Source: Thermodesulfovibrionales bacterium
GTDB lineage: Bacteria; Nitrospirota; Thermodesulfovibrionia; Thermodesulfovibrionales; Dissulfurispiraceae
DNA length: 64,000 nucleotides
Direction of reading: 5' to 3'
Assembly (NCBI GenBank): GCA_030017995.1
Contig: JASEGS010000005.1
Span: 1-64,000 of the forward strand
The notes under the pieces are model-generated. The model had not been told where the DNA came from and did not search any database. It was given only the letters and a program-made list of their open reading frames with translations. This document shows, in pieces, positions 658 through 62,439 of this stretch. The number at the start of each line of letters is the position of its first letter. Position 1 is the first letter of the stretch. Position numbers and translations under genes: made by a program.

Positions 658-1797
658 GTGAAAGTTACTGATAAAGATATATCATTCATGAAAAAGGCGC
701 TGGCTCTTGCTGCAAAGGCAAGGGGTATGACAAGCCCAAATCCAATGGTTGGCGCCGTGATAGTCAGAAACGGGAAAGTTATTTCAGAAGACTATCACAA
801 ACAAGCTGGCGAGCCTCATGCAGAAGCACTTGCAATACTCAAAGCAGGAGATAAGGCAAAAGGCGCAAGTCTTTATGTAACGCTTGAACCTTGCTGCCAT
901 CTGGACAAGCGTACCCCTCCATGCACAAAAACCATCATTAATTCAGGAATTAAAAAAGTCTTTATTGCAGTGAAAGACCCTAATCCAAAGGTATCGGGAA
1001 AAGGTTTCGAAGAGTTGAAAAAACAAGGAATTGAGGTTGTCAGTGGAATACTCGAGGATAAAGCAAGAAAGCTGAATGAGGCTTATGTCAAATATATAAC
1101 CACAGGGATGCCGTTTGTTATTCTGAAGACAGCCATGACACTCGATGGTAAAATTGCAACCCCTGAGGGACAATCAAAATGGATAACAGGGGAGGGGGCA
1201 AGAAAAGTCGTCCATATGATGAGAAAAGAAGTTGATGCCATACTCACGGCAGTAGGGACTGTGAAGGCAGATAATCCGGAGCTAACGGTAAGAATCAGAA
1301 GACAGAAGACAGAAAACAGAAGACAGCCTGAAAGAATAGTAATAGATCCGAAGCTTGAGATACCTTTTGACTATAAGATTTTCAATGTACCGTCGGAAAC
1401 GATTGTAATTACCAGGAGACAGAATACAGAAGACAGAATACAGAAAGAAAAGACATTGATAGACAGAGGCGTAAAAGTCATCGAGTATGAAAGTGAAAGA
1501 TTGGATTTGAAGTGGCTTATGAAAAAACTTGGTGAGATGGAGATTACATCTGTGATGATAGAAGGTGGGGCATCACTCAATGCTCATGCATTACAGGATG
1601 AGATAGTTGATAAGGTAGTTTTTTTTATTGCTCCGAAAATCATTGGAGGAAAGGACTCCATCCCTGCTGTTGGCGGAAATATATTCAAAAGATTGGAAGA
1701 AGCCTATCAGATACATAACATGGGGGCCAGAAAAATAGGAGAAGATCTCATGGTTGAAGGATATATCCTCAAACATGCCTGTACCTCCTCTTTTTGA
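658..1797 (+). CDS. ribD: Bifunctional riboflavin biosynthesis deaminase/reductase RibD
   Basis: RibD catalyses deamination and then side-chain reduction of the pyrimidine intermediate in riboflavin synthesis (cytosol). The N-terminal half is a CMP/dCMP-deaminase fold with HAE at residues 54-56 and the zinc-binding EPCC...TPPC at about 77-89. The C-terminal reductase domain starts near KTAMTLDGKIA. At 379 residues it is of normal size. The GTG at 658 gives a full N terminus but has a very close Shine-Dalgarno; ATG 688 is the alternative. The reductase half contains two stretches rich in the words RRQKTENRRQ and RRQNTEDRIQ, encoded by CAGAAGACAGA repeats where homologues have short variable loops. 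It overlaps hemW by one base. Confidence 0.93.
   Translation: MKVTDKDISFMKKALALAAKARGMTSPNPMVGAVIVRNGKVISEDYHKQAGEPHAEALAILKAGDKAKGASLYVTLEPCCHLDKRTPPCTKTIINSGIKKVFIAVKDPNPKVSGKGFEELKKQGIEVVSGILEDKARKLNEAYVKYITTGMPFVILKTAMTLDGKIATPEGQSKWITGEGARKVVHMMRKEVDAILTAVGTVKADNPELTVRIRRQKTENRRQPERIVIDPKLEIPFDYKIFNVPSETIVITRRQNTEDRIQKEKTLIDRGVKVIEYESERLDLKWLMKKLGEMEITSVMIEGGASLNAHALQDEIVDKVVFFIAPKIIGGKDSIPAVGGNIFKRLEEAYQIHNMGARKIGEDLMVEGYILKHACTSSF
1295..1452 (+). repeat. CAGAAGACAGA word repeats inside ribD (two patches)
   Basis: Patch one (about 1300-1325) and patch two (about 1417-1445) are runs of near-identical 7-8 base words (CAGAAGA, CAGAATA, CAGAAAA). They read in frame as Arg/Gln/Glu/Thr/Asn-rich peptides. 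Both lie in variable positions of the reductase domain, away from the substrate and NADPH motifs. The same words recur at glnD, carB and an outer-membrane protein gene in this window. Confidence 0.75.
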
Positions 1798-11978: not shown

Positions 11979-12896
11979 ATGGTCGGGGTAATTGATATAG
12001 GTTCAAATACTATAAGGGTATTGATCGGCTATATCAAAGACGGCAAACTGACCAGAATTGCTGCTGATAGATATGTCACAAGGCTCGGCAGAAACATGCT
12101 AAAGAATGGACTCCTTGATGAAGATGGCATTGAGGAGTCCATATTGTCTTTAATAAAGATTAAGGCGTTATGCGAAAGTTTTGGAGCAAAGAAAATAGTT
12201 GCTGTTGGCACAAGTGCCCTAAGAGAGGCAAGAAATAACAATGAATTTTTAGAGAGGGTTAAAAAAGAGACAGGGATACGCATTGAAATCATCTCCGGAG
12301 AAAAAGAAGCCGAATTAACATTAAAAGGGATATTGACATCAGGACTCAGCTATCAAACATGTTTCATTGTTGATGTTGGAGGCGGAAGCACAGAATGGAT
12401 CTATTACACAAAAGACGGGGGACAAAGTCTAAATATGGGGAGTGTGCCTATCGGTGCTGTAAAACTCTCTGAAAGTTTTATAAGACATGACCCCCCTACC
12501 CCAGAAGAACTCACTCATATAAAAAATTTTATCTCACAACAACTTTTTATGGCATTAGATCTTTCACTCATCACTAATCACCAACCGCTAACCTTCATAG
12601 CCACTGGCGGCACTGCAACGACAATAGCAGCCATAGACAAGAAACTTTGCAAGTATGAGGGCGAAAAAGTTCATGAACACAGGATTTCTCACTACGATAT
12701 GAAAGCGATATATGAGAAATTAACCACTTTGTCTTTTGATGACAGGGCTAAACTCAAGGGCTTGGAGCCAGATAGGGCAGGAATTATAATACCAGGAACA
12801 TTTGTTTTACTGATTTTCATGGAAATCCTGAAAACCAAAGAGATGATCGTAAGCGATTACGGCCTTTTGGAAGGCTTGTTAGTAAGTAATGCATGA
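11979..12896 (+). CDS. Ppx/GppA family phosphatase
   Basis: Exopolyphosphatase / pppGpp phosphohydrolase family with an actin-like ATPase fold. It begins GVIDIGSNTIRVLIG, with VDVGGGSTEWIY and GGTATTIAAI further on. At 305 residues it contains only the two actin-like domains and lacks the C-terminal HD-like region of long Ppx/GppA, like short actinobacterial and Nitrospirota forms. It follows proS by two bases. The segment LSLITNHQPLTF at about residue 194 is encoded by a TCACTAATCACCAACC-like low-complexity run at a loop position. Confidence 0.85.
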   Translation: MVGVIDIGSNTIRVLIGYIKDGKLTRIAADRYVTRLGRNMLKNGLLDEDGIEESILSLIKIKALCESFGAKKIVAVGTSALREARNNNEFLERVKKETGIRIEIISGEKEAELTLKGILTSGLSYQTCFIVDVGGGSTEWIYYTKDGGQSLNMGSVPIGAVKLSESFIRHDPPTPEELTHIKNFISQQLFMALDLSLITNHQPLTFIATGGTATTIAAIDKKLCKYEGEKVHEHRISHYDMKAIYEKLTTLSFDDRAKLKGLEPDRAGIIIPGTFVLLIFMEILKTKEMIVSDYGLLEGLLVSNA

Positions 12897-14702: not shown

Positions 14703-15251
14703 TCATTCTGCTTGCATTCTAATTTCTGCATTATCCCTCAATTTCGCTATGTGATTCTTCAATTGTCTGTTTGTTTCCAATTCAAACAAGTATTTCTCAA
14801 TGTCATCTCTTACAGACCGATACTCCCGTCCCCTAAAATCACTAATATGGTCATTATAAAACTTTTTAACTTCATCTTCTTTTATGAATATTAATGATTT
14901 GATTTTAATATCTATATAGTCTCTTATCATCTCATCATCTGTTGATGCTTCGAGCCTCATCTTCTTTGCCTCTTTAATGAGCAATATGCGGTTGATCATG
15001 GAATTTATAACATCTTGCTTTGTTATATTCACGACATTTTTCCCCATCTTTATATGTTCATCATGAAGTTCTGAAAGAGTGATAGCCGTATCGTCTATAT
15101 ATGCAACAACCCTGTCTATTATCTCAGCAGAACTTTTGGAACAGTAGAGCAGTAGAGCAACAGCGCAGTAGAAAAACAAAATAGAGCAATATCGCAGACT
15201 AAAAATAACTACTGCTCTGCTGCCCCGTTGCTCTGTTGCTCTAAAACGCAT
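14703..15251 (-). CDS. SurA N-terminal-domain-like periplasmic protein
   Basis: Probable exported chaperone-like protein. After a hydrophobic signal segment, the mature part begins SAEIIDRVVAYIDDTAITLS, like the SurA N-terminal domain (VDxVVAxVNxxxI). The rest is helical, with no parvulin prolyl-isomerase domain. ATG 15251 overlaps the Omp85 stop by a few bases; ATG 15275 is possible. The signal peptide region is built from AGAGCAACAGAGCAG-type words and may be a repeat insertion turned into a leader. It is the last gene of the minus-strand array after tamB and Omp85, fitting outer-membrane protein handling. Confidence 0.68.
   Translation of the reverse strand: MRFRATEQRGSRAVVIFSLRYCSILFFYCAVALLLYCSKSSAEIIDRVVAYIDDTAITLSELHDEHIKMGKNVVNITKQDVINSMINRILLIKEAKKMRLEASTDDEMIRDYIDIKIKSLIFIKEDEVKKFYNDHISDFRGREYRSVRDDIEKYLFELETNRQLKNHIAKLRDNAEIRMQAE
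15139..15242. repeat. Word-palindrome element (AGAGCAACAGAGC words)
   Basis: On the plus strand, purine-rich words GGAACAGTAGAGCAGTAGAG and CAACAGCGCAGTAG occupy the left half. Their pyrimidine-rich reverse-complement words CTACTGCTCTGCTGC and GTTGCTCTGTTGCTCT occupy the right half, with an A-rich centre. The whole makes an imperfect hairpin of about 100 bases spanning the end of the Omp85 gene and the signal peptide of the SurA-like gene. A second element with similar vocabulary lies at 17854-17938. Confidence 0.7.
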
Positions 15252-17988
15252 GTCCAATGCTGAAATGTATTTCACCGCTACTTTCTCCTGCTTCTTTGTT
15301 TAACTTATGGCCATAATCCACCCTGAGAGGGCCAACAGGCGTATTATATCTCAACCCTAAACCTGTCGTATATTTGATGTCTTTCATATTCATGTCCCCA
15401 ATTTTTTGCCATACATTGCCACCGTCAAGAAATGTAACTATGCCAAAACCTTTTCCTACATCGGCTCTGAGCTCAAGATTGCCCATGATAAAAGCATTTC
15501 CACCCGTGGGCGTGCCATCAGCGCCTTTTGGGCCAAGGGTATCCTGCGCATAACCTCTAACAGTTGTCCTTCCTCCGAGGAAGAACCTTTCGACAATCGG
15601 CAGTTCTTCGGTCCGCCCAAAACCATTGGCTAACCCTCCTCTCAGTGATACAGCAAGCACTATATGCTTATTTACGCTGCTATACTTATTTGCGTAAAAT
15701 ATCAATTTTGCAAAATCTGTTTCTGACAGAAAAACAGCAGAAGCGACTTTAAATGATAATCCGGCAATCAAACCATCTTTTGGCTCAAAAGGGTTGTCTC
15801 TTGTGTCGTATATCAAACCAGGACGAAGCCCGCTTATTACAAGGGTGCCGGTATCTTCTCTGCTCAGTATCACATCTGGTTTTACATCAAATGTTTCCAC
15901 TACTGAGAAGTCATAATAAAACTCTGTCTTCAGGTTCTCGGTGAACCTCTTCTCTACTCCTGCGCTCGCAGTATTCCTTTTCAATTTATATCTTATTTCA
16001 TCAGTATCTATGCTCTTCTCTTCTCTCTTCTCATGCAACATAGTAGCCCTGAAAGTCATTTCAGTATTCATAAACCATGGTTCCTGATATGAGAGCATAA
16101 ACCTCTGTTCAAGTGCGCTTAGTTCTGTTCGAAAAGATGCCTGCCTGTGCATACCCCAGAGGTTTTTATAACTTATATCAATAAACCCCCTATATCTTTC
16201 ATATTCCGCATAACCAAATCCGAATTCCACAGCGCCTGCAAACCCTTCCTTCAAATCATACAATACGTCTCTTTTGCCGCTCTCTTTATCCAGAAGTTTT
16301 ATCTCTATATCTGCAAACAATCCTAATCTATGCAGCTTTTGCCTCTCCTGAAGAAGAAGTCCGTAATCCAGCGGCTGGTCATTTTTATGCATGAATTCTC
16401 GTTTTATCACTCGGTAATCGGTTTTTTCATTCCCTGCAATAACAGAACTGCCGAAAAATGTAATATGGCCTTCTTTTATATTAAAAGTTATATTTGCAGA
16501 TGAGCCTGCCACATGTCTGTTAACAGTGACCTCTGCATCGAGAAAACCCTTTTTATTGTATAGGTGCAAGATTTTACGCCTTGCATCTGACAGATCAATT
16601 TCATTGTATGGAGTGCCAACTTTTAATGGTCTAGCGTTTAATATATCTTCAACTGAAACAGACCTGTTATTAACAAAAGAGAGTTCTGCCAACTTAATCT
16701 GGGAACCTTCTTCTATGCTGAATTTTATCTGTACCTTACCAAAGTCCATCGTAACTTCGGGCTCTTGTATGTTCACATAAATATATCCAAGCGCATGGTA
16801 GAACTCTGTTATCGTCTCCCTGTCTGATTTTAAAACATCAGGGTTATAATATCCCCCAGCCTTTAGAAATAGTATCTCGCTCAATCTTTCTGAAGGAATG
16901 GATAATGCCCCTGTTGCGCTGACAAAAACAACAAGGTCGACTAAATATCTCTCGCCCTCGAATATAAAAAACTCTATTGATATATCATTATCAGACTTCG
17001 TGACAGTTGGCGCAGCCTGGACAAAAGGATAACCGTATTTGTGGTATAGCGAAAGTATTCTAAGTGTTGATTCTTCCAGCAACTCATCGTTAAAATCATT
17101 TATCTTAAAGAAAGGCACCTCTTTAATAAGTTCTTTTGAACTAATCGAGGCATTTCCAGCAAAAGAGATATTAAGTCTTTTCCCTACATATAGTTTTATG
17201 TCAAGCGTCCCGTCTTTGTATGAATATGAAATATTTGTTCCAATGAACCCTTCCTTTTTATACCTATCCGCAACTTTTTCTTTTAGTTTTTCGAGCTGCA
17301 GGATGTCAAATATATCACCTTCTGAAAGGCTTATATAGGATTTAACCGCATCTTCAGGTTCAGAAATTGTTATTCTCTTTATAATTTCAGGCTGTCCTTC
17401 TGTTAGATTAATTAAAAGTTTAACCTTGTTGTTTTTTAACTCTACAATTTCATAGGTAACATCAGAATTTATAAATCCTCTTTTTTTAAGTTCAGTTTTA
17501 AGGTTCTCTAAGCCCTTCTTTATTTCTACGTTATTCAGCCGTTCGCCGCTGCTTATGTGTAATTGGTTTTTTATAAACCTATCTGAAAAATAATCGTTGC
17601 CTCTTATATCTATTGAATCGATTATCTTTTTTTCTATAATAGTTATCTTAAGCCTCGAACCTGCCTGATCAAGGCTTTCTACAATAATATCGTCAAATAT
17701 GCCTTTTAGAAAAGCCCGTTTAATCCCTTTTTTTATTTCAATTCTATTAAGGGTTTCCCCTTTTTTGATGTTTAGTAAATCAAAAATCTCGTCTTCTGAA
17801 ATGGAATAAAGACCCGTAACTTCAATGTGGGAGATGGACTGAGCATTGGCAAAAGCAGAGCAGAAGGACAGCAAAACAGCAAAGAAAAAAAATCTTCTTA
17901 AAACTTCTGCGCTTCCGCGCTTCCGCTCTGTTGCTCTATTTGAATTCGAACCTGAATTTAATATCTCCGCCAATGCCACCCCTTTCAT
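15241..17988 (-). CDS. Omp85-family outer-membrane assembly protein (BamA/TamA-like)
   Basis: Outer-membrane insertase-type protein. A signal peptide (hydrophobic run ending FANAQS near residue 50) precedes about seven POTRA-like repeats, then a C-terminal Omp85 beta-barrel from about 580 on. The barrel shows VRGYAQDTLGPKG (the conserved VRGY/F motif), GLRYNTPVGPLRVDYG and a terminal Phe in IHFSIGHAF. At 915 residues it is longer than BamA (about 800) or TamA (about 580). Direct linkage to tamB suggests a TamA-type partner role. The start overlaps tamB by about 50 bases, and the leader lies within a word-palindrome repeat. Confidence 0.88.
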   Translation of the reverse strand: MKGVALAEILNSGSNSNRATERKRGSAEVLRRFFFFAVLLSFCSAFANAQSISHIEVTGLYSISEDEIFDLLNIKKGETLNRIEIKKGIKRAFLKGIFDDIIVESLDQAGSRLKITIIEKKIIDSIDIRGNDYFSDRFIKNQLHISSGERLNNVEIKKGLENLKTELKKRGFINSDVTYEIVELKNNKVKLLINLTEGQPEIIKRITISEPEDAVKSYISLSEGDIFDILQLEKLKEKVADRYKKEGFIGTNISYSYKDGTLDIKLYVGKRLNISFAGNASISSKELIKEVPFFKINDFNDELLEESTLRILSLYHKYGYPFVQAAPTVTKSDNDISIEFFIFEGERYLVDLVVFVSATGALSIPSERLSEILFLKAGGYYNPDVLKSDRETITEFYHALGYIYVNIQEPEVTMDFGKVQIKFSIEEGSQIKLAELSFVNNRSVSVEDILNARPLKVGTPYNEIDLSDARRKILHLYNKKGFLDAEVTVNRHVAGSSANITFNIKEGHITFFGSSVIAGNEKTDYRVIKREFMHKNDQPLDYGLLLQERQKLHRLGLFADIEIKLLDKESGKRDVLYDLKEGFAGAVEFGFGYAEYERYRGFIDISYKNLWGMHRQASFRTELSALEQRFMLSYQEPWFMNTEMTFRATMLHEKREEKSIDTDEIRYKLKRNTASAGVEKRFTENLKTEFYYDFSVVETFDVKPDVILSREDTGTLVISGLRPGLIYDTRDNPFEPKDGLIAGLSFKVASAVFLSETDFAKLIFYANKYSSVNKHIVLAVSLRGGLANGFGRTEELPIVERFFLGGRTTVRGYAQDTLGPKGADGTPTGGNAFIMGNLELRADVGKGFGIVTFLDGGNVWQKIGDMNMKDIKYTTGLGLRYNTPVGPLRVDYGHKLNKEAGESSGEIHFSIGHAF
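17854..17938. repeat. Word-palindrome element at the Omp85 signal peptide
   Basis: The left half carries purine-rich words (AGCAGAGCAGAAGGACAGCA, AACAGCAAAG). The right half carries CTTCTGCGCTTCCGCGCTTC and CGCTCTGTTGCTCT. They can pair imperfectly around an A/T-rich centre. The element encodes most of the predicted leader of the Omp85 protein and lies at the tamB/Omp85 junction. Confidence 0.6.
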
Positions 17989-21954: not shown

Positions 21955-24513
21955 TCAGCAAATAATTTCCCATACAGAATTCAAGAGAGTTAACGTGATA
22001 TATGAATTTAGTTTACCACCATTATGCTGCAAATAGAAAACATCCTGAGCTATTCCTTCCTCTGTATTTATAACAGATGACATAATATCCACATTGTGCA
22101 TGAAGAAACATGTTGATACATCATTTAATAAGCCAAGCCTGTCCGCTGAAAACAGTTCGAGAATAGTATATCTGTCTGATGTCTCATTGTCTATTTCAAC
22201 AAAACTCTCAAATCTCTTTAAAGCAAGGTATTGACGAGGCGCGATAGATGCCGGGGTATATGTCTTTTGCATTTCTGCTGTTTGCCTGTAGTCTATTGCC
22301 TTAGTTAAGTCCGCTTTTATCTGTTCTTCCATGCCCTGCCACCAAATATCTTTCCAGTTAGATAACATGATCTTATCAACTACAAGACCGCTTTTACCTG
22401 TATAAAGTCTTGCCCTTAAAACATTAAGCCCTCTGAAGCCCAGCGCTCCGACTATTTTTGAAAAAAGTCCCTGCCTATTGAATGTGACAATAGTTAATTC
22501 AGCAGTGCCATCAGGTCTTTCCTGTACAGTTATAGCCAAACCATTTTCTTTTGCCTTCAGTGCCAATTGATAGTCTATTTTTACAATATCGATTGTGTTT
22601 GAGATTAAATATCTATCAGGCAGGTCATCAACAAATTCTTTAAGAGCCCTGTCATAATCATCAAAATAAAAACCGCGTACGCCTTGCAAATGTTTTGCTG
22701 TTTTCAAATAGAGATCGTGAAATATGTATGCCTTCCATTCCGTCCAAAAATATGGATTCACAGCTTTCATATCTGCATATGTCACGAGATATAACGCATC
22801 AAGATTAGACTGGTTTTCCACAAGATCGGCAAGCTGTGAAATGGTTTCAGGTGTATCCGGATCTCTGGTTAACGCGATTTTTGAGAGTTTAATATGATTT
22901 TTGACAAGAAATTCAATCCTCTGTCTATCATCATGTTCTGCTCCAAGCCTCTCCATCGCCCCTTTAAGTATTTTATACCCAGCGTCTTCATGCCGCTTAT
23001 AATCTTTTATAGCAGCGATTCCAATGTCGCGAGGATAAACGCCTTTGCCTATATCATGCAAAAGCAAGGCTAAAAATAAGGTTTCCTGTTTTATCTTCGA
23101 AAAAATATCAGAAAGGCAATGCAATTTCACTTGCTTAGTATTCTTTAATTTTTCAAGGCTTTTAATGGCAATGAGAGTGTGTTCATCTACTGTATACTTA
23201 TGATGCGGTTCATAAACAACAAGATGCCTTAGTCTTCCAAACTCAGGGATAAATCTATCGAGAATTCCAATATCGTGCATCTCCTTAAGTGTTTCATATA
23301 CCCTATTGCCTCTTAATATCTCGAAAAAAAACATTATCGCCTTTTTTGAAGACCTCGTTTTTCTATTTATAGACAGCACTCTGCTTTTGATAGCCTTTTT
23401 AACCTGCTGACTGAACTTTTTCCCTGTAATTGAATAAATATAAAAGGCCTCTAACAACCGGTCAGGGTTTTTAAATATCTCTTTATCTTTTGCAACAATT
23501 TCATTTTTTGATAAGTAGAAATCATCTGTTATTCTTTTTATCATTAAACTGCCGGGAATGCTGACAAGTTGACGACTGCAAATACCTGTTAAAAATGCAA
23601 GAACATCAGTTATGCTCTTTGCCTTTCTGTAATAAAGTCTCATGAGTATTTCTGATGACAGAAAACGCTTGGTATCTTTAAACCCAAGTGCCTTTGAAAC
23701 AGCTTCCTGAAGCTCGAAAGACAGGACATCGTTTTTTCTTCTCGAAATGTAATGCAAGCACAGCCTTATTTTTAAAAGGAAATCGTAGGAATCTATAAAG
23801 TGCCTATGCTCATCATAAGAAAGCAAGCCTTTTATACCTTCCGTGTTATCCATCTTTAATACCGACCTTGCAAACCACGATATTGCGTGAAAGTCTCTCA
23901 ACCCTCCACTGCCTTCTTTAATGTTCGGTTCAAGGAGATATACAGAGTTGCCATATATATGATGTCTCTTCTCTGTTTCCCGAAGAATATCTCCAAAAAA
24001 AGCTTTCCTGTTTTTAAAAAGAAGTTTCTTATATACATCCCTCTGAAATTCTTTAAACACTGTAAAATCGCCTGCAAGGAATCGTGATTCCATGAGTGAA
24101 GTCCTTATCCGTATGTCTTTTGCTGAATCTTCGCTGCATTCGGACAATGTTCTGAAACAATGACTTATTTGCAGTCCCATATCCCACAGAGGGTAAAGAA
24201 AGGATTGAGCCGCTTCCATATTCACAGGACTCCTGTCTTTTGCAAGCAGCATGATATCAATATCAGAAAAAGGTGACATCTCTCTGCGTCCATATCCTCC
24301 TATCGCAACAAGCGATAGATTGAGATTGGAATTCAGAGGTTGAAGTTTAGAATTATAGGCTGAAACAAGCAGATTATCAATAATGCCTGTCAGTTCGCGG
24401 ACTATATATATGCCATCCGTTCCTGACCTGATACGCTCTTCAGCCCTGCTACAAAGGAATTCGCTAATAGTCTGTCTCCTGTCTTCTGTAATCTGTTCTC
24501 TGTCTCTTGTCAT
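21955..24513 (-). CDS. glnD: [Protein-PII] uridylyltransferase/uridylyl-removing enzyme
   Basis: Nitrogen sensor that uridylylates PII proteins and removes UMP according to glutamine level. The nucleotidyltransferase motif GGYGRREMSPFSDIDI is at about 72-87. A helical bundle follows, then the HD domain with LLLHDIGKG near 484. Two C-terminal ACT domains lie around NRQGLFSKIVGALGFRGLNV and SADRLGLLNDVSTCFF. At 852 residues it has normal length. The N terminus ([19 protein letters not shown]) is encoded by CAGAAGACAGA-type words, and NSKLQPLNSNLNLS at about 55-68 is a second repeat-like patch before the active site. The start overlaps the permease stop. Confidence 0.93.
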   Translation of the reverse strand: MTRDREQITEDRRQTISEFLCSRAEERIRSGTDGIYIVRELTGIIDNLLVSAYNSKLQPLNSNLNLSLVAIGGYGRREMSPFSDIDIMLLAKDRSPVNMEAAQSFLYPLWDMGLQISHCFRTLSECSEDSAKDIRIRTSLMESRFLAGDFTVFKEFQRDVYKKLLFKNRKAFFGDILRETEKRHHIYGNSVYLLEPNIKEGSGGLRDFHAISWFARSVLKMDNTEGIKGLLSYDEHRHFIDSYDFLLKIRLCLHYISRRKNDVLSFELQEAVSKALGFKDTKRFLSSEILMRLYYRKAKSITDVLAFLTGICSRQLVSIPGSLMIKRITDDFYLSKNEIVAKDKEIFKNPDRLLEAFYIYSITGKKFSQQVKKAIKSRVLSINRKTRSSKKAIMFFFEILRGNRVYETLKEMHDIGILDRFIPEFGRLRHLVVYEPHHKYTVDEHTLIAIKSLEKLKNTKQVKLHCLSDIFSKIKQETLFLALLLHDIGKGVYPRDIGIAAIKDYKRHEDAGYKILKGAMERLGAEHDDRQRIEFLVKNHIKLSKIALTRDPDTPETISQLADLVENQSNLDALYLVTYADMKAVNPYFWTEWKAYIFHDLYLKTAKHLQGVRGFYFDDYDRALKEFVDDLPDRYLISNTIDIVKIDYQLALKAKENGLAITVQERPDGTAELTIVTFNRQGLFSKIVGALGFRGLNVLRARLYTGKSGLVVDKIMLSNWKDIWWQGMEEQIKADLTKAIDYRQTAEMQKTYTPASIAPRQYLALKRFESFVEIDNETSDRYTILELFSADRLGLLNDVSTCFFMHNVDIMSSVINTEEGIAQDVFYLQHNGGKLNSYITLTLLNSVWEIIC
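24470..24513 (-). repeat. CAGAAGACAGA word repeats at the glnD N terminus
   Basis: On the minus strand the first 15 or so codons are ACAAGAGACAGAGAACAG and ATTACAGAAGACAGGAGACA, giving the peptide [13 protein letters not shown]. This is the same vocabulary as in ribD, carB and the 55268-56104 gene. It sits at the very start of the coding region, where an added leader should be tolerated. Confidence 0.7.
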
Positions 24514-54020: not shown

Positions 54021-54812
54021 TTATTTCTCTGATGATTCGGTTTTTTTCTTTACAAACAATGGAGAAATCCATATCCCTATTTCATAAAGCAATATTATTG
54101 GGACAGCCATCAATAGCTGGTTAAAAGCATCGGGCGTCGGGGTTAAAAGCGCAGCTAAAACAAAGGCGATTAAAACAGCATATTTTCGGTTTTTTGCAAG
54201 AGTTCTTGGCGTAACAATTCCCATTTTTGTCAAAAATACGATAACTATTGGAAGCTCAAAAACAGCGCCAAAGGCAAGGATGAACTTGAGGCAGAAATCA
54301 ACATACTGACCGACGGAAAGCATTGGCATTAAAAAATCCCCTACTTTGTAAGTCAGCAGAAAGCTCATTGCGAATGGAAGAACTATAAGAAAACAGAAAG
54401 AAGCCCCTATAAGGAACAGCCCTGTTGCCACAAATATAAAAGGGAGCACATACCTCTTTTCTTTTGGCATAAGTCCAGGGGCAATAAATTTCCATAACTG
54501 ATGAAAAATCACAGGCAAGGAAAGAATAATACCAGCTACAAAGGCAATCTTGAGGTTCATCCAAAAAGCCTCTGCTGGTCCTAAGAAAACGAGTTTTGTA
54601 TCAGGCAGCTTATCTTGAGGGACAAACTGCACATACATGTTTCTTACAGAGAAATCCAGATTATATTTCAGAGGAAACATAAGTCCTCTGAAGATGTTTT
54701 CAGAATATGTGAATGAAACTACAAAGGCGATGATAATGACGGTTAAGGAGACAACAATCCTTTTTCTTAATTCCCCAAGGTGCTCTGTGAGGGGCATCTT
54801 TTCATCTTCCAT
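54021..54812 (-). CDS. tatC: Sec-independent protein translocase TatC
   Basis: Multi-spanning core of the twin-arginine translocase. It begins MEDEKMPLTEHLGELRKRIV with the conserved EHLGELRKR cytosolic motif. Six hydrophobic segments span 263 residues, with TPRTLAKNRKYAVLIAFVLA and LTPTPDAFNQLLMAVP in the last loops. It is preceded by tatA/B. The substrates probably include the Mo/W or Fe-S proteins of this anaerobe, although no Tat signal was seen on FdhA. Confidence 0.95.
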   Translation of the reverse strand: MEDEKMPLTEHLGELRKRIVVSLTVIIIAFVVSFTYSENIFRGLMFPLKYNLDFSVRNMYVQFVPQDKLPDTKLVFLGPAEAFWMNLKIAFVAGIILSLPVIFHQLWKFIAPGLMPKEKRYVLPFIFVATGLFLIGASFCFLIVLPFAMSFLLTYKVGDFLMPMLSVGQYVDFCLKFILAFGAVFELPIVIVFLTKMGIVTPRTLAKNRKYAVLIAFVLAALLTPTPDAFNQLLMAVPIILLYEIGIWISPLFVKKKTESSEK

Positions 54813-54821
54813 TCCCTTTTA

Positions 54822-55220
54822 TTACCCCTTTTCTTCTCGTTCTTCTGCCCCTGCTGAGGGATCTGCAATTTTTTCTTCCTCCGCAGTTTCTGAAGATACA
54901 TTTGCGTCATGCCGGCTTGTGCCGCGCACTTCCACTTCCATGGTTTTCTCACTGGATTGATCTGAATCATTATTATATTTAACCGGTTTTAAATCTTCTG
55001 TCTGGCTTTCCGGCTTTATAATATGGTCTTCCCATGACATAGGTTTTTTTACCTCAAGCATCTCTGCATCAATCTGTTCTTTAACGCCATGCAGCGCTTT
55101 CTTTAGTTCAGCAACTCCTTTGCCGATAGTCCTTCCAAGCTCAGGCAATTTTTTAGGACCAAAGACAAGAAGAGCCACAATGAAAATAACTATTAATTCC
55201 TGCATTCCAAGATCAAACAT
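54822..55220 (-). CDS. tatB: TatA/TatB-type twin-arginine translocase subunit
   Basis: One N-terminal membrane helix (MQELIVIFIVALLVFGPKKL) with the FGPKKLPELGR hinge, then an amphipathic helix and an acidic, disordered tail of about 70 residues. The Pro after the hinge and the E at residue 8 suit TatB as much as TatA. At 132 residues it is TatB-like in length. The start of tatC is nine bases away. Assignment to A or B is uncertain; another tatA may exist elsewhere. Confidence 0.82.
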   Translation of the reverse strand: MFDLGMQELIVIFIVALLVFGPKKLPELGRTIGKGVAELKKALHGVKEQIDAEMLEVKKPMSWEDHIIKPESQTEDLKPVKYNNDSDQSSEKTMEVEVRGTSRHDANVSSETAEEEKIADPSAGAEEREEKG

Positions 55221-55267: not shown

Positions 55268-56104
55268 TTATTGTTCGTATATTTTCTGAAGCTCTTTCTT
55301 TTCAACCGGCAGGATAAGGCTGATGGAAAATAGCAACCTGTAATCAGGAGTCCTGTTTTTTATGTCAAAACCTACTCCAATACTTGTATAAAGATAATCC
55401 GTAGTTGCTATCCTGTAGCCGAGTCTCCATTCAAAGAAGTTTATCTTATTCTTAAAGTAGTCTTTTCTTCCGATGATTTCTGAAAGCATTTTGGAATCAT
55501 GCGTGACAGCTAATTCAGCGCCCATATTTAAAGAATATTCATCTTTTAGTCCAGATTTGCCTGGATTGGAATAAAAGGCGTTCAGATGTCCTTTAAACGG
55601 TCCGACTTTTTTTGTAAGTATAAGTCCGGCGCCAATTGCCCCGTCTGTAGAAAACTCATCCCTGCCGGAAAAGGTGGAAAATGTCAGAATATAAGCTAAT
55701 GCAGGGTTGAATCTCCCTTCATCTATAACCCTGTGTTTAATCCCTATGCTTGCATCTTCAAAGCCGTCAATCTTATTTTGCCATTCAGTAACATAAGGAA
55801 CTGTCAGATTCAACTCAACCCTGTCACTCAACCCATAAGCAAAACCAAGAGTGGTCCTATAAAAATCAGGGCTTATGGATTTTTCAAAACCTAAGCCTAT
55901 ACCAAAATTTTTTTGTTTCAGGCTCTCGGCGCTGAATGTGGAAAATACTCCATAGGGAGGAAGGGGCTGTAAACCCTTTATATCAAAGGCATAAGCAGAA
56001 GACAGAAGACAGATAACAGAGGACAGAAAACAGATGACAGAAAAAACAAAATAAAATTTTCTGTCTGACTTCTGACTTCTGTCTTCTGTCTCATGTCTTT
56101 TCAT
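55268..56104 (-). CDS. Predicted outer-membrane beta-barrel protein
   Basis: A signal peptide followed by repeated amphipathic strands (FGIGLGFEKSISPDFYRTTL; LGFAYGLSDRVELNLTVPYV; ALAYILTFSTFSGRDEFSTD). It resembles outer-membrane transporters of the MetA/phenol-degradation (Phenol_MetA_deg) type, about 278 residues from ATG 56104. The function is not predictable. Its whole leader (HETEDRSQKSDRKFYFVFSV, then ICFLSSVICLLSSAYA) is written in CAGAAGACAGA words and their reverse complements, so the export signal appears to be a repeat element. Confidence 0.65.
   Translation of the reverse strand: MKRHETEDRSQKSDRKFYFVFSVICFLSSVICLLSSAYAFDIKGLQPLPPYGVFSTFSAESLKQKNFGIGLGFEKSISPDFYRTTLGFAYGLSDRVELNLTVPYVTEWQNKIDGFEDASIGIKHRVIDEGRFNPALAYILTFSTFSGRDEFSTDGAIGAGLILTKKVGPFKGHLNAFYSNPGKSGLKDEYSLNMGAELAVTHDSKMLSEIIGRKDYFKNKINFFEWRLGYRIATTDYLYTSIGVGFDIKNRTPDYRLLFSISLILPVEKKELQKIYEQ
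55994..56098. repeat. Word-palindrome element (CAGAAGACAGA words) in a signal peptide
   Basis: On the plus strand the left half is GCAGAAGACAGAAGACAG, ATAACAGAGGACAGAAAACAG and similar words. After an A-rich centre the right half is TTCTGTCTGACTTCTGACTT and CTGTCTTCTGTCTCATGTC. The two halves are reverse complements in vocabulary and can fold on each other. In the minus-strand gene it encodes first a charged segment and then a hydrophobic Ser/Val/Leu/Cys-rich leader ending in SSAYA. Confidence 0.75.
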
Positions 56105-56165
56105 TGTTGATAAAATTATCAAAAATGCCGTGCCCTGTCAAATCCAATGCAGTGGTTAGGCAGTG

Positions 56166-59133: not shown

Positions 59134-62100
59134 TCAATTGTCTTTATGATATTCCTGTATAGATTTAATACTCAAATCCTTCTTGAGCAACATTTCTATG
59201 GCTTTTACCACTGCCTTTGCTCCAGAGATAGTGGTAGTATATGGGATATTATGCTGAAGGGCGCTGCTCCTTATAGAAAACGAATCCTTCTGCGCCTGAG
59301 CGCCTGTGACTGTATTGATTATAAAGTTTATCTCCCTGTTCTTTATCAGATCCACAACATGAGGACGCCCTTCCATAACTTTATTAATGATATCCACTTT
59401 AATACCATTTTCTGACAAGTATTTTGCAGTGCCCCTTGTTGCAATAATCTGGAAAGCCATTTCCGAAAGTTTTTTTGCTATCTGAGCGGTATGAAATTTA
59501 TCCTTGTCTTTAACGCTGATAAATATTTTACCAGACGTGGGAATCCTGTTTTTGCTGGCTGCCTGTGCCTTTGCATAGGCAAGGCCAAAATCTTCATCTA
59601 TTCCCATAACCTCGCCTGTTGACTTCATCTCAGGACCCAGTATTACATCCACTCCAGGGAACCTATCAAATGGAAAGACAGCCTCTTTAACAGCCACGTG
59701 CTTTATCTCGATCTCATCACTCAAGCCGAGTTCCTTCAATGTCTTCCCTGCCATCACCTTCGCAGCAAGTTTAGCAAGGGGAACACCTGTTGCCTTGCTG
59801 ACATAAGGTATTGTCCTTGATGCCCTTGGATTGACCTCTAATATGTATATTTCATAATCCTCTTGTCTATCTTCTATCCTTTTCACTGCAAACTGAACAT
59901 TCATCAATCCTACCACATTAAGCTCTTTAGCAAGAGCCTTTGCCTGCCTTTTTATCTCATCCACAATATTTAAAGGCAGAGAATAAGGCGGAATTGAACA
60001 GGCAGAATCACCTGAATGAATCCCGGCCTCTTCAATGTGCTCCATGACCCCGCCTATTATAACATCAGCGCCATCTGAAATTGCATCCACATCCACTTCT
60101 ATGGCATCCTCAAGGTACTTGTCTATGAGAATGGGGTGCTCTGGCGATGCCTTAACAGCCCTTTTCATATAATCTGTTAAAGAGTCTTCATCATAAACTA
60201 TCTCCATTGCCCTGCCGCCAAGAACATAGGAAGGTCTTACCATCACAGGGTATCCTATCTTATTTGCAACTGCTACTGCATCTTCGCAGGACATGGCTGT
60301 GCCGCTTTCAGGCTGTTTGAGATCGAGCTTGTGCAGCAGTTCCTTGAATCTTCTTCTGTCCTCTGCCCTGTCAATAGAATCTGGAGATGTGCCGAGTATC
60401 TTCACGCCTTCTTTTTCAAGGGGGACTGCCAATTTAAGAGGCGTCTGCCCTCCAAACTGGACTATAACCCCTTCAGGTTTTTCAAGATCAACAATACTTA
60501 AAACATCCTCTATGGTCAAAGGCTCAAAATAAAGCCTGTCTGCAGTGTCATAATCTGTGCTGACTGTTTCAGGGTTACAGTTGATCATTATTGTTTCATA
60601 CCCCGTTTCCTTCAACGCAAAAACAGCATGGACGCAGCAATAGTCAAACTCAATCCCCTGCCCTATCCTGTTCGGTCCCGAGCCTAAAATTACAACCTTC
60701 TTGCGGTCTGTCGGATTAGCCTCGCATTCAACGACAGAAGATAAATGACAGATAACAGAGGACAGACTTTTTTCTTTATTCTGACTCCTATCTTCTGTAT
60801 TCTGTATTCTGAAGTATGGTCTTTCATATGTCGAGTACATATAAGGAGTATATGCCTCGAACTCCGCAGCGCATGTATCAACCAGCTTATACGCAGGCTT
60901 TAATCCAATCTCTTTCCTTAATTGCCTTATGTCCCTTTCGGTCTTTCCTGTAAGCTCGGCAATGCGCCTGTCTGAAAAACCGTATTCCTTGGCGTCTATC
61001 AATAAAAACTCCTGAACTCCTAAACTCTTTAACTTTTCTTCCATATCGATGATCTGCTTCATATTATTTAAAAACCATGGATCTATCCATGTCATTTCAT
61101 GGATGTCCTGAACACTTATTTCGTGTCTCAATGCCTGCGCTACATACCAGATACGCTCAGCATTCGGAGTTTTGAGCTTTGATTTTATCTCATCAACATT
61201 TCCGTCAACAAGTTCAAAACCAGCCGAGCCTATTTCAAGACTCCTCAATGCCTTCTGCAGAGATTCCTTGAATGTCCTGCCTATTGCCATTACCTCACCA
61301 ACCGATTTCATCTGGGTCGTAAGAGTAGCATCAGCTTCCGGGAATTTCTCAAAGGTGAACCTCGGAACTTTTGTAACTACATAATCTATAGTGGGTTCAA
61401 AAGATGCGGGTGTTTCTCTCGTTATATCATTTTTTATTTCGTCAAGAGTGTAACCCATGGCAAGTTTTGCTGCAATCTTTGCTATGGGGAAACCAGTTGC
61501 CTTGCTGGCAAGGGCAGAACTTCTTGAGACCCTCGGATTCATCTCTATTACAACCATTCTGCCATTGTCTGGATTTAATGCAAACTGAATATTGGAGCCT
61601 CCTGTATCAACCCCTATCTCTCTGATAACCGCAATAGCTGCGTCACGCATCCTCTGATATTCTTTATCAGTTAACGTCTGAGCCGGTGCAACTGTTATGG
61701 AGTCTCCTGTATGTACGCCCATTGGATCAAAGTTTTCTATAGAACATATAATGACTACATTGTCCTTCATGTCCCTCATGACTTCCAGTTCGTATTCTTT
61801 CCAACCCAGGACTGATTCCTCCACAAGCACCTGATGGACAGGGCTGAGCTTCAAACCCTTTTCTAATAATTCCCTGTATTCCTCAATGTTATAGGCAATG
61901 CCTCCTCCTGCGCCGCCGAGGGTAAAAGCAGGTCTGAGTATGGCTGGAAATCCCACATGCTCAACAATGTCAATGCCATCCTTCATGCTGGTGATGGCTG
62001 CGCTTTTAGGGACTTCAAGACCGATCTTCCTCATTGCCTCCTTAAAGAGTTCCCTGTCCTCCGCTTTCTTTATAGCGTTAAGCCTTGCTCCAATAAGTTC

Positions 62101-62439
62101 AACCTCATATCTGTCGAGGATGCCTGCCTCAGATAGCTCCACGGCAAGGTTTAATGCGGTTTGCCCGCCCATTGTCGGAAGGAGGACATCAGGCCTTTCC
62201 TTTTTAATAATCAATTCGAGGATCTCTGTTGATAAAGGCTCGATGTAGGTTGCGTCCGCTATCTCCGGGTCTGTCATAATGGTTGCGGGGTTCGAATTCA
62301 CAAGCACTATTTTATAGCCTTCTTCGCGCAAGGCCTTGCATGCCTGAGTCCCGGAATAGTCGAATTCGCACGCCTGGCCTATCACTATCGGGCCTGAGCC
62401 GATTAATAGTATTTTCTTAATGTCTGTCCTCTTTGGCAT
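59134..62439 (-). CDS. carB: Carbamoyl-phosphate synthase, large subunit
   Basis: ATP-dependent synthetase for pyrimidine and arginine precursors. Two homologous halves each have ATP-grasp domains ([39 protein letters not shown]), an allosteric MGS-like domain at the C terminus, and an oligomerisation domain in the middle. It has 1101 residues, about 30 more than usual. The excess is exactly at the junction of the halves, after YMYSTYERP, where [17 protein letters not shown] and [11 protein letters not shown] are inserted before [11 protein letters not shown]. The insert is a CAGAAGACAGA word-palindrome in a surface linker. Confidence 0.96.
60730..60815. repeat. Word-palindrome insertion in carB
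   Basis: On the plus strand, ACGACAGAAGATAAATGACAG and ATAACAGAGGACAGAC are followed by CTGACTCCTATCTTCTG and TATTCTGTATTCTGAAG. Purine-rich words occupy one arm and their reverse complements the other, forming an imperfect hairpin. The length is a multiple of three in effect, since the CarB frame is intact on both sides. Flanking residues match the normal CarB interdomain sequence directly. Confidence 0.78.

Follow-up and report, generated by a model that had tools for sequence, protein, structure and literature searches.

Signal peptides probably rebuilt from dispersed inverted heptamer repeats in a Thermodesulfovibrionales bacterium

A repeat-built leader in an envelope-protein gene

The 64,000-nucleotide stretch of DNA analyzed here (the window) encodes on its minus strand, at 55268..56104, an envelope protein of 278 amino acids, whose CDS is defined by its open reading frame, its orthologues and a promoter adjoining ATG 56104. 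The protein is DUF3187-like, by a weak Pfam match that falls below the cutoff (E=3e-4). AlphaFold modeling of the protein from two sequences gave a mean pLDDT of 37, with an N-terminal helix followed mostly by strands, and the model was too weak for a fold search; a PDB sequence search with the protein yielded no significant match. Directly downstream of the gene lie TatA-like and TatC-like genes (54021-55220; names judged from sequence).

The 39-residue leader is encoded by two tandem arrays of 7-mers, (ACAGANN)n and (NNTCTGT)n, arranged as an inverted repeat. Read on the minus strand, this DNA encodes MKRHETEDRSQKSDRK-FYFVF-SVICFLSSVICLLSS-AYA followed by FDIKG, or, as a whole, MKRHETEDRSQKSDRKFYFVFSVICFLSSVICLLSSAYA and then FDIKGLQPLPPYGVF. 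The purine arm in the sense strand, composed of ACAGAAG-type heptads at 56057..56102 (minus; identified by a lag-7 scan and the inverted repeat), supplies most of the charged n-region, KRHETEDRSQKSDRK. A spacer encoding FYFV (56045..56056, minus) separates it from the pyrimidine arm, whose NNTCTGT heptads at about 55993..56044 (minus; 55993-56041 by the lag-7 scan, with inverted repeat and hydropathy as further evidence) encode the hydrophobic h-region SVICFLSSVICLLSS. The A-Y-A codons at 55988..55996 (minus) form a likely signal peptidase site as judged from orthologue leaders, and the mature part, which begins at 55987 with FD(I/V)KGLQP, is conserved in the same comparison. The original prediction that one arm yields a charged n-region and the other a hydrophobic h-region is borne out by this sequence. 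It had also placed the element correctly, but its description of the leader as entirely encoded by repeat words goes too far: MKR, the FYFVF spacer and AYA lie outside the arms, which hold about thirty of the 39 codons.

The lag-7 self-similarity of the leader exceeded that of all 300 dinucleotide shuffles (p=0.003), and its RNA is predicted to fold into a hairpin of -44.6 kcal/mol (z=-6.6; 0 of 200 shuffles). Within the repeat unit, conservation was 0.78-0.98 at positions 1-5, and 0.54 and 0.40 at positions 6 and 7. Five well-conserved bases followed by two variable ones would not be expected from plain mutational decay. We considered that one arm might have arisen by fold-back copying from its partner and rejected this, as by eye the arms mostly disagree at their variable bases. 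With a net n-region charge of +2, a best 12-residue hydropathy window of 2.92 and an A-Y-A end, the leader has the layout of a Sec signal peptide, namely a positive n-region, a hydrophobic h-region and small residues at -3 and -1.

The position of the promoter bears on whether the element is translated. A -35 box, TTGACA (56136..56141, minus), is conserved across orthologues, and a -10 box, TAATTT (56113..56118, minus), mostly TATTCT in the orthologues compared, ends about 8 nt before the ATG. By eye, 26 of 27 orthologues (set L009-L038) have a TTGACA-like box, a gap of 16-18 nt and a TATTCT-like box just before the ATG. Boxes so close to the start codon imply a leaderless mRNA, and the transcript probably begins at or near ATG 56104. 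The start chosen by the ORF finder, TTG 56122, falls within the conserved promoter and was rejected in favor of ATG 56104. Downstream of codon 1, no ATG, GTG or TTG occurs in frame until codon 92, which already belongs to the conserved mature protein. Because the promoter adjoins ATG 56104 and no earlier in-frame start follows it, the element must, on these sequence grounds, be translated. The original prediction had reckoned with translation that starts after the element, in which case the repeat would be a 5' untranslated region. We regard this as practically out of the question: codons 1 to 92 have no in-frame ATG, GTG or TTG between them, the promoter adjoins ATG 56104 in orthologues as well, and codon 92 is downstream of the conserved mature start FD(V/I)KGLQP.

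Dispersal of the repeats and their strand in proteins

Related elements occur elsewhere in the window. Two-arm octad elements form the leader of a SurA-like protein encoded at 14703..15275 on the minus strand (AGAGCANN/NNTGCTCT; element at 15138..15244, minus; lag scan, shuffles and RNA hairpin) and that of a BamA-like protein encoded at 15241..17988 on the same strand (element at 17848..17940, minus; lag scan and shuffles, with POTRA/Omp85 in Pfam). A two-arm heptad element at 60733..60819 (minus; lag scan, orthologues and Pfam) encodes part of the inter-domain linker of CarB (59134..62439, minus). Lag scans also revealed single heptad purine arms: two in the same RibD-like CDS on the plus strand, at 1289..1330 (IRRQKTENRRQPE) and 1411..1451 (TRRQNTEDRIQKE), and one in an N-terminal extension of a GlnD-like CDS (24471..24504, minus). 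A heptad-like word, TTCACTCATCACTAATCACCAACC, at 12563-12594 reads LSLITNHQPL inside a Ppx/GppA-like ORF (11979..12896).

The ACAGANN word is patchily distributed: the genome of the window has 79 hits, six relatives have 17-53, a seventh has 8, and no other relative searched has more than one. Of 198 genomes from the phylum, 25 contain four consecutive ACAGANN units. AGACANN, the pattern reversed as a control, was itself abundant in two genomes, G096 and G111 (27 and 26 reverse hits, respectively), and is probably a further repeat word of the family.

For a census, we sampled elements regardless of context, taking the stretches around matches in the window's genome to three exact ACAGANN units and to AGAGCANN octads with at most one mismatch. 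Contexts were assigned by a score for codon usage, trained on the genes of the window, by manual classification where this was unclear and, for part of the genes, by Pfam. Among the resulting 57 heptad and octad elements, 18 fell in signal peptides or lipoprotein leaders, 6 were intergenic and 33 occupied other coding sites. The binomial probability of 18 or more in signal peptides is 2.6e-19 if these make up 1.5% of the genome and 3.9e-14 at 3%, the fractions (1-3%) being estimates. The genes with repeat leaders are L043, L045 (LolA), L047 (TolB), L049 (D-Ala-D-Ala carboxypeptidase), L055, L058 (SpoIID), L061 (AMIN amidase), L063 (TolC-like), L065, L066 (BamD), L067 (thioredoxin-like), L069 (LptA), L075 (LptD), L079, L080, L087 (M16) and those of the window's envelope protein and SurA-like protein; the Pfam families behind them, which are those of exported proteins, are LolA, TolB, S11 peptidase, SpoIID, AMIN/Amidase_3, OEP, YfiO/BamD, LptA/LptD, M16 and AhpC-TSA. 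The BamA leader is a further case that lies below the search threshold and outside the 18. Besides the gene for the envelope protein, the genome has 18 or more further genes with repeat-built signal peptides. Across 19 repeat leaders, the best 12-residue hydropathy ranged from 2.27 to 3.27 and the n-region charge from 0 to +7, usually positive, values like those of ordinary leaders.

The strand in which the repeats are read followed the protein context. In signal peptides, the h-region always came from the hydrophobic arm. At other coding sites, 29 of 29 single arms were read in the hydrophilic sense (TEDRRQK, RAEEQKS) and none in the hydrophobic sense; the two-arm copies at such sites numbered four, in a KdsB-like gene (L040), CarB, L083 and L085. 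A replicate genus (G026) gave 6 signal peptides, all in the hydrophobic sense, and at its other coding sites single arms were 17:0 hydrophilic, with 1 two-arm copy; 2 more copies were intergenic. In the genic copies examined, the reading frame was open throughout, with no stops inside. Two in-frame octad inserts each were present in a leucyl-tRNA-synthetase-like (L076) and a P-type-ATPase-like gene (L084), both named by judgment from sequence.

Sense and antisense codons are known to be opposite in hydropathy. Since 7 is coprime to 3, a tandem 7-mer encodes an identical cycle of seven residues in every frame: CTTCTGT gives LLSSVFC, with a mean Kyte-Doolittle value of 2.21, and its complement ACAGAAG gives TEDRRQK, with a mean of -3.44. 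Among all 7-mers free of stops, hydropathy on one strand is anticorrelated with that on the other (r=-0.71). In the two-arm copies found, intergenic ones included, the purine arm always came first, and both strands therefore read charged, then hydrophobic. Orientation is not decisive for two-arm copies. The earlier proposal tied the export signal to insertion in a single orientation. This does not hold for a two-arm copy, a palindrome that reads charged-then-hydrophobic on both strands and in any frame.

Replacement of leaders among relatives

Orthologues of the envelope protein were present in 54 of 60 relatives. Within the family, the start region and the mature start are shared, and the leaders between them consist of other words: CTACTGCT octads in L012, L014 and L015, the ACTCCATT word in L010 and L018, CTTCTTA in L013 and L019, CTCGTTA in L023, CTTATCT in L011 and TTCTGCC in L017. 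The BamA-like and SurA-like leaders likewise have further words (GCCTATT, GCCTTCA, ACCTCA, GAGTTAC, ACGCGTTA and TTCACTC). For orthologues of the three genes, whose repeat words in the family are 6-8 bp long, 35 of 89 leaders were periodic at p<=0.01, compared to 3 of 89 mature segments (Fisher 1.9e-9). A tree of the mature protein called for about 5 switches between ordinary and repeat leaders and about 10-11 from one word to another. These counts took L148 as ordinary; with its leader assigned to the ACTCCATT type (L148 and L010 have identical mature proteins), the first may fall to about 4 and the second would be about one below 11. A second site of recurrence is the linker between the CarB domains, where the words differ by lineage (L149-L171). 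Other types of insert were seen in this linker, TPPLLKGGKGGF in L157, the similar NPPLTKGGL in L159 and PSSPRGEFKGEG in L160. Shared heptad elements occupy the same place in apparent orthologues from two genera (L047/L185, L063/L180, L055/L179 and L046/L183); some of these copies may be old, or the sites may have been hit twice.

Outgroup leaders without the element are ordinary and short (about 20 residues; for example, MKKYIFLLFFFSCTLFTGHAYG). The suggestion that such elements are a way of evolving secretion signals accordingly finds no support if it is taken as creation de novo, and we rejected a de novo origin of secretion. Because the outgroups already have ordinary leaders, the best reading of these sequences is that the element rebuilt existing signal peptides rather than created secretion. 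Among the 30 orthologues read, we saw no homologue that lacked both the element and a leader. No insertion with sharp ends or duplicated target sequence was found; leaders in relatives appeared replaced, not interrupted.

Most of the genomes compared are draft assemblies in many contigs, and chimeric repeats or another assembly artefact of a metagenome-assembled genome might produce such patterns. This is highly improbable, as the frame stays open through the elements and a single-contig genome (G005) has both repeat leaders and 38 heptad hits. Independent slippage deserves somewhat more weight. Signal peptides are low-complexity, lineages differ in their words and arm lengths vary among close relatives (L012, L014), all of which would fit biased signal-peptide DNA that expands short repeats in place, without a dispersed element. 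However, a single genome has the same word at dozens of scattered loci, intergenic regions and enzyme interiors included, and most relatives lack it; the arms are inverted; and neighboring units vary at two of their bases but keep the other five. The present counts also suggest that words are more alike across the loci of one genome than between genomes. Slippage is in our judgment unlikely.

Equally improbable is a regulatory account, in which the elements serve at the 5' ends of envelope genes as binding sites or mRNA hairpins for joint regulation, with signal-peptide coding as a side effect. The many envelope-assembly genes with copies, the strong RNA hairpin at the envelope-protein leader, its apparently leaderless mRNA and the interpretation of comparable paired arrays as sites for global regulators in Geobacter metallireducens (PMC2700814) are in keeping with it. 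At the corresponding site, however, the words of orthologues are unrelated or missing, many copies lie deep within synthetases and other enzymes, and the strand rule tracks protein chemistry. Regulation of envelope genes by the copies is possible, but leaves the strand rule and the word changes unexplained.

We infer instead that the leader is probably a functional Sec-type signal peptide, serving in export, that came from a copy of a dispersed inverted-repeat 7-mer element, and that selection keeps the working copies. Copies of the element would insert or expand at numerous points of the genome, and those harmful to a protein would be purged by selection. In the loops and linkers of globular proteins, only the hydrophilic strand would be tolerated; in signal peptides, the hydrophobic strand would be tolerated and could replace the old h-region. 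Because complementary codons are opposite in hydropathy and the purine arm always comes first, a two-arm copy would encode a charged stretch followed by a hydrophobic one whichever strand and frame are read. This is the layout of a signal peptide, and signal peptides would for that reason be a preferred landing place, remade again and again from the word that happens to be active in the lineage. Such rebuilding may be frequent because signal peptides are short, loosely constrained and already charged-then-hydrophobic. The process would be one filtered by selection rather than an adaptive one. More tentatively, and with doubt outweighing confidence, we suggest that a repeat-generating system writes short-word inverted arrays (five fixed and two variable bases, with the word changing between lineages) and is a main source of signal-peptide turnover in core envelope-assembly genes, the strand complementarity of the genetic code giving the n-region/h-region layout.

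The sequences of signal peptides change quickly, and how one comes to replace another can rarely be traced. In the present case the source material can be seen, and the same site appears rebuilt with different words in related genomes. A simple rule, that complementary arms are opposite in hydropathy, can explain how repeat DNA yields a signal peptide in any frame. Collectively, these leaders would represent natural signal-peptide replacements in core envelope genes (BamA, LptD, LolA and TolB) of a group of groundwater bacteria, and a clear case of repeat insertions sorted by strand through selection.

Comparison with known repeat systems

In the open-access literature searched, neither the leader peptide nor its DNA words had a match, and we came across no account of signal peptides being rebuilt time and again from many different repeat words, or of the strand rule. 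Heptameric repeats are little studied (PMC4692102). The GGGNATC heptads of Xanthomonas and Nostoc are dispersed and vary in copy number, but are G-rich, mostly intergenic and under-represented in coding regions (PMC4692102), whereas many copies here are genic. The P6b stem of the Nostoc trnL intron contains 7-mers with fixed and degenerate positions (NNTGAGT, TDNGATT), in which one word has repeatedly been replaced by another between relatives (PMC4476775). The elements described here share with them the fixed and degenerate positions, the complementary arms that form a stem and the replacement of words between relatives; the cyanobacterial repeats, however, form an RNA stem in an intron and do not code for protein, whereas ours lie in protein-coding leaders.

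Arrays in Geobacter metallireducens consist of tandem degenerate 7- and 8-nt units (MTYCTGA, GTTGCTYN) in tens of copies, mostly as pairs on opposite strands at a variable distance (PMC2700814). Paired tandem units of 7 or 8 nt are common to both systems; here, two-arm copies always have the purine arm before the pyrimidine arm, and many copies are single-armed. The Geobacter arrays were interpreted as regulator binding sites, and the term signal peptide is absent from the main text of that paper (PMC2700814). Rickettsia palindromic elements (Ogata et al.) are in-frame, stem-loop-forming inserts in many protein-coding genes (PMC2996958, PMC2229807). As in Rickettsia, the inserts described here are dispersed in open reading frames and keep the frame. 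The Rickettsia elements are 105-146 bp of family-specific sequence, whereas ours are short tandem 7- and 8-mers of variable length with signal peptides as a main target. A precedent for a repeat at such a site is the RU-2/YPAL element of Yersinia in YPO1552 (Delihas 2007, PMC2759123). The Yersinia report concerns one main case and a 168-bp element of fixed sequence; by contrast, the elements described here are arrays of 7- to 8-mers, draw on many words, affect core envelope genes, recur across a family and follow a strand rule.
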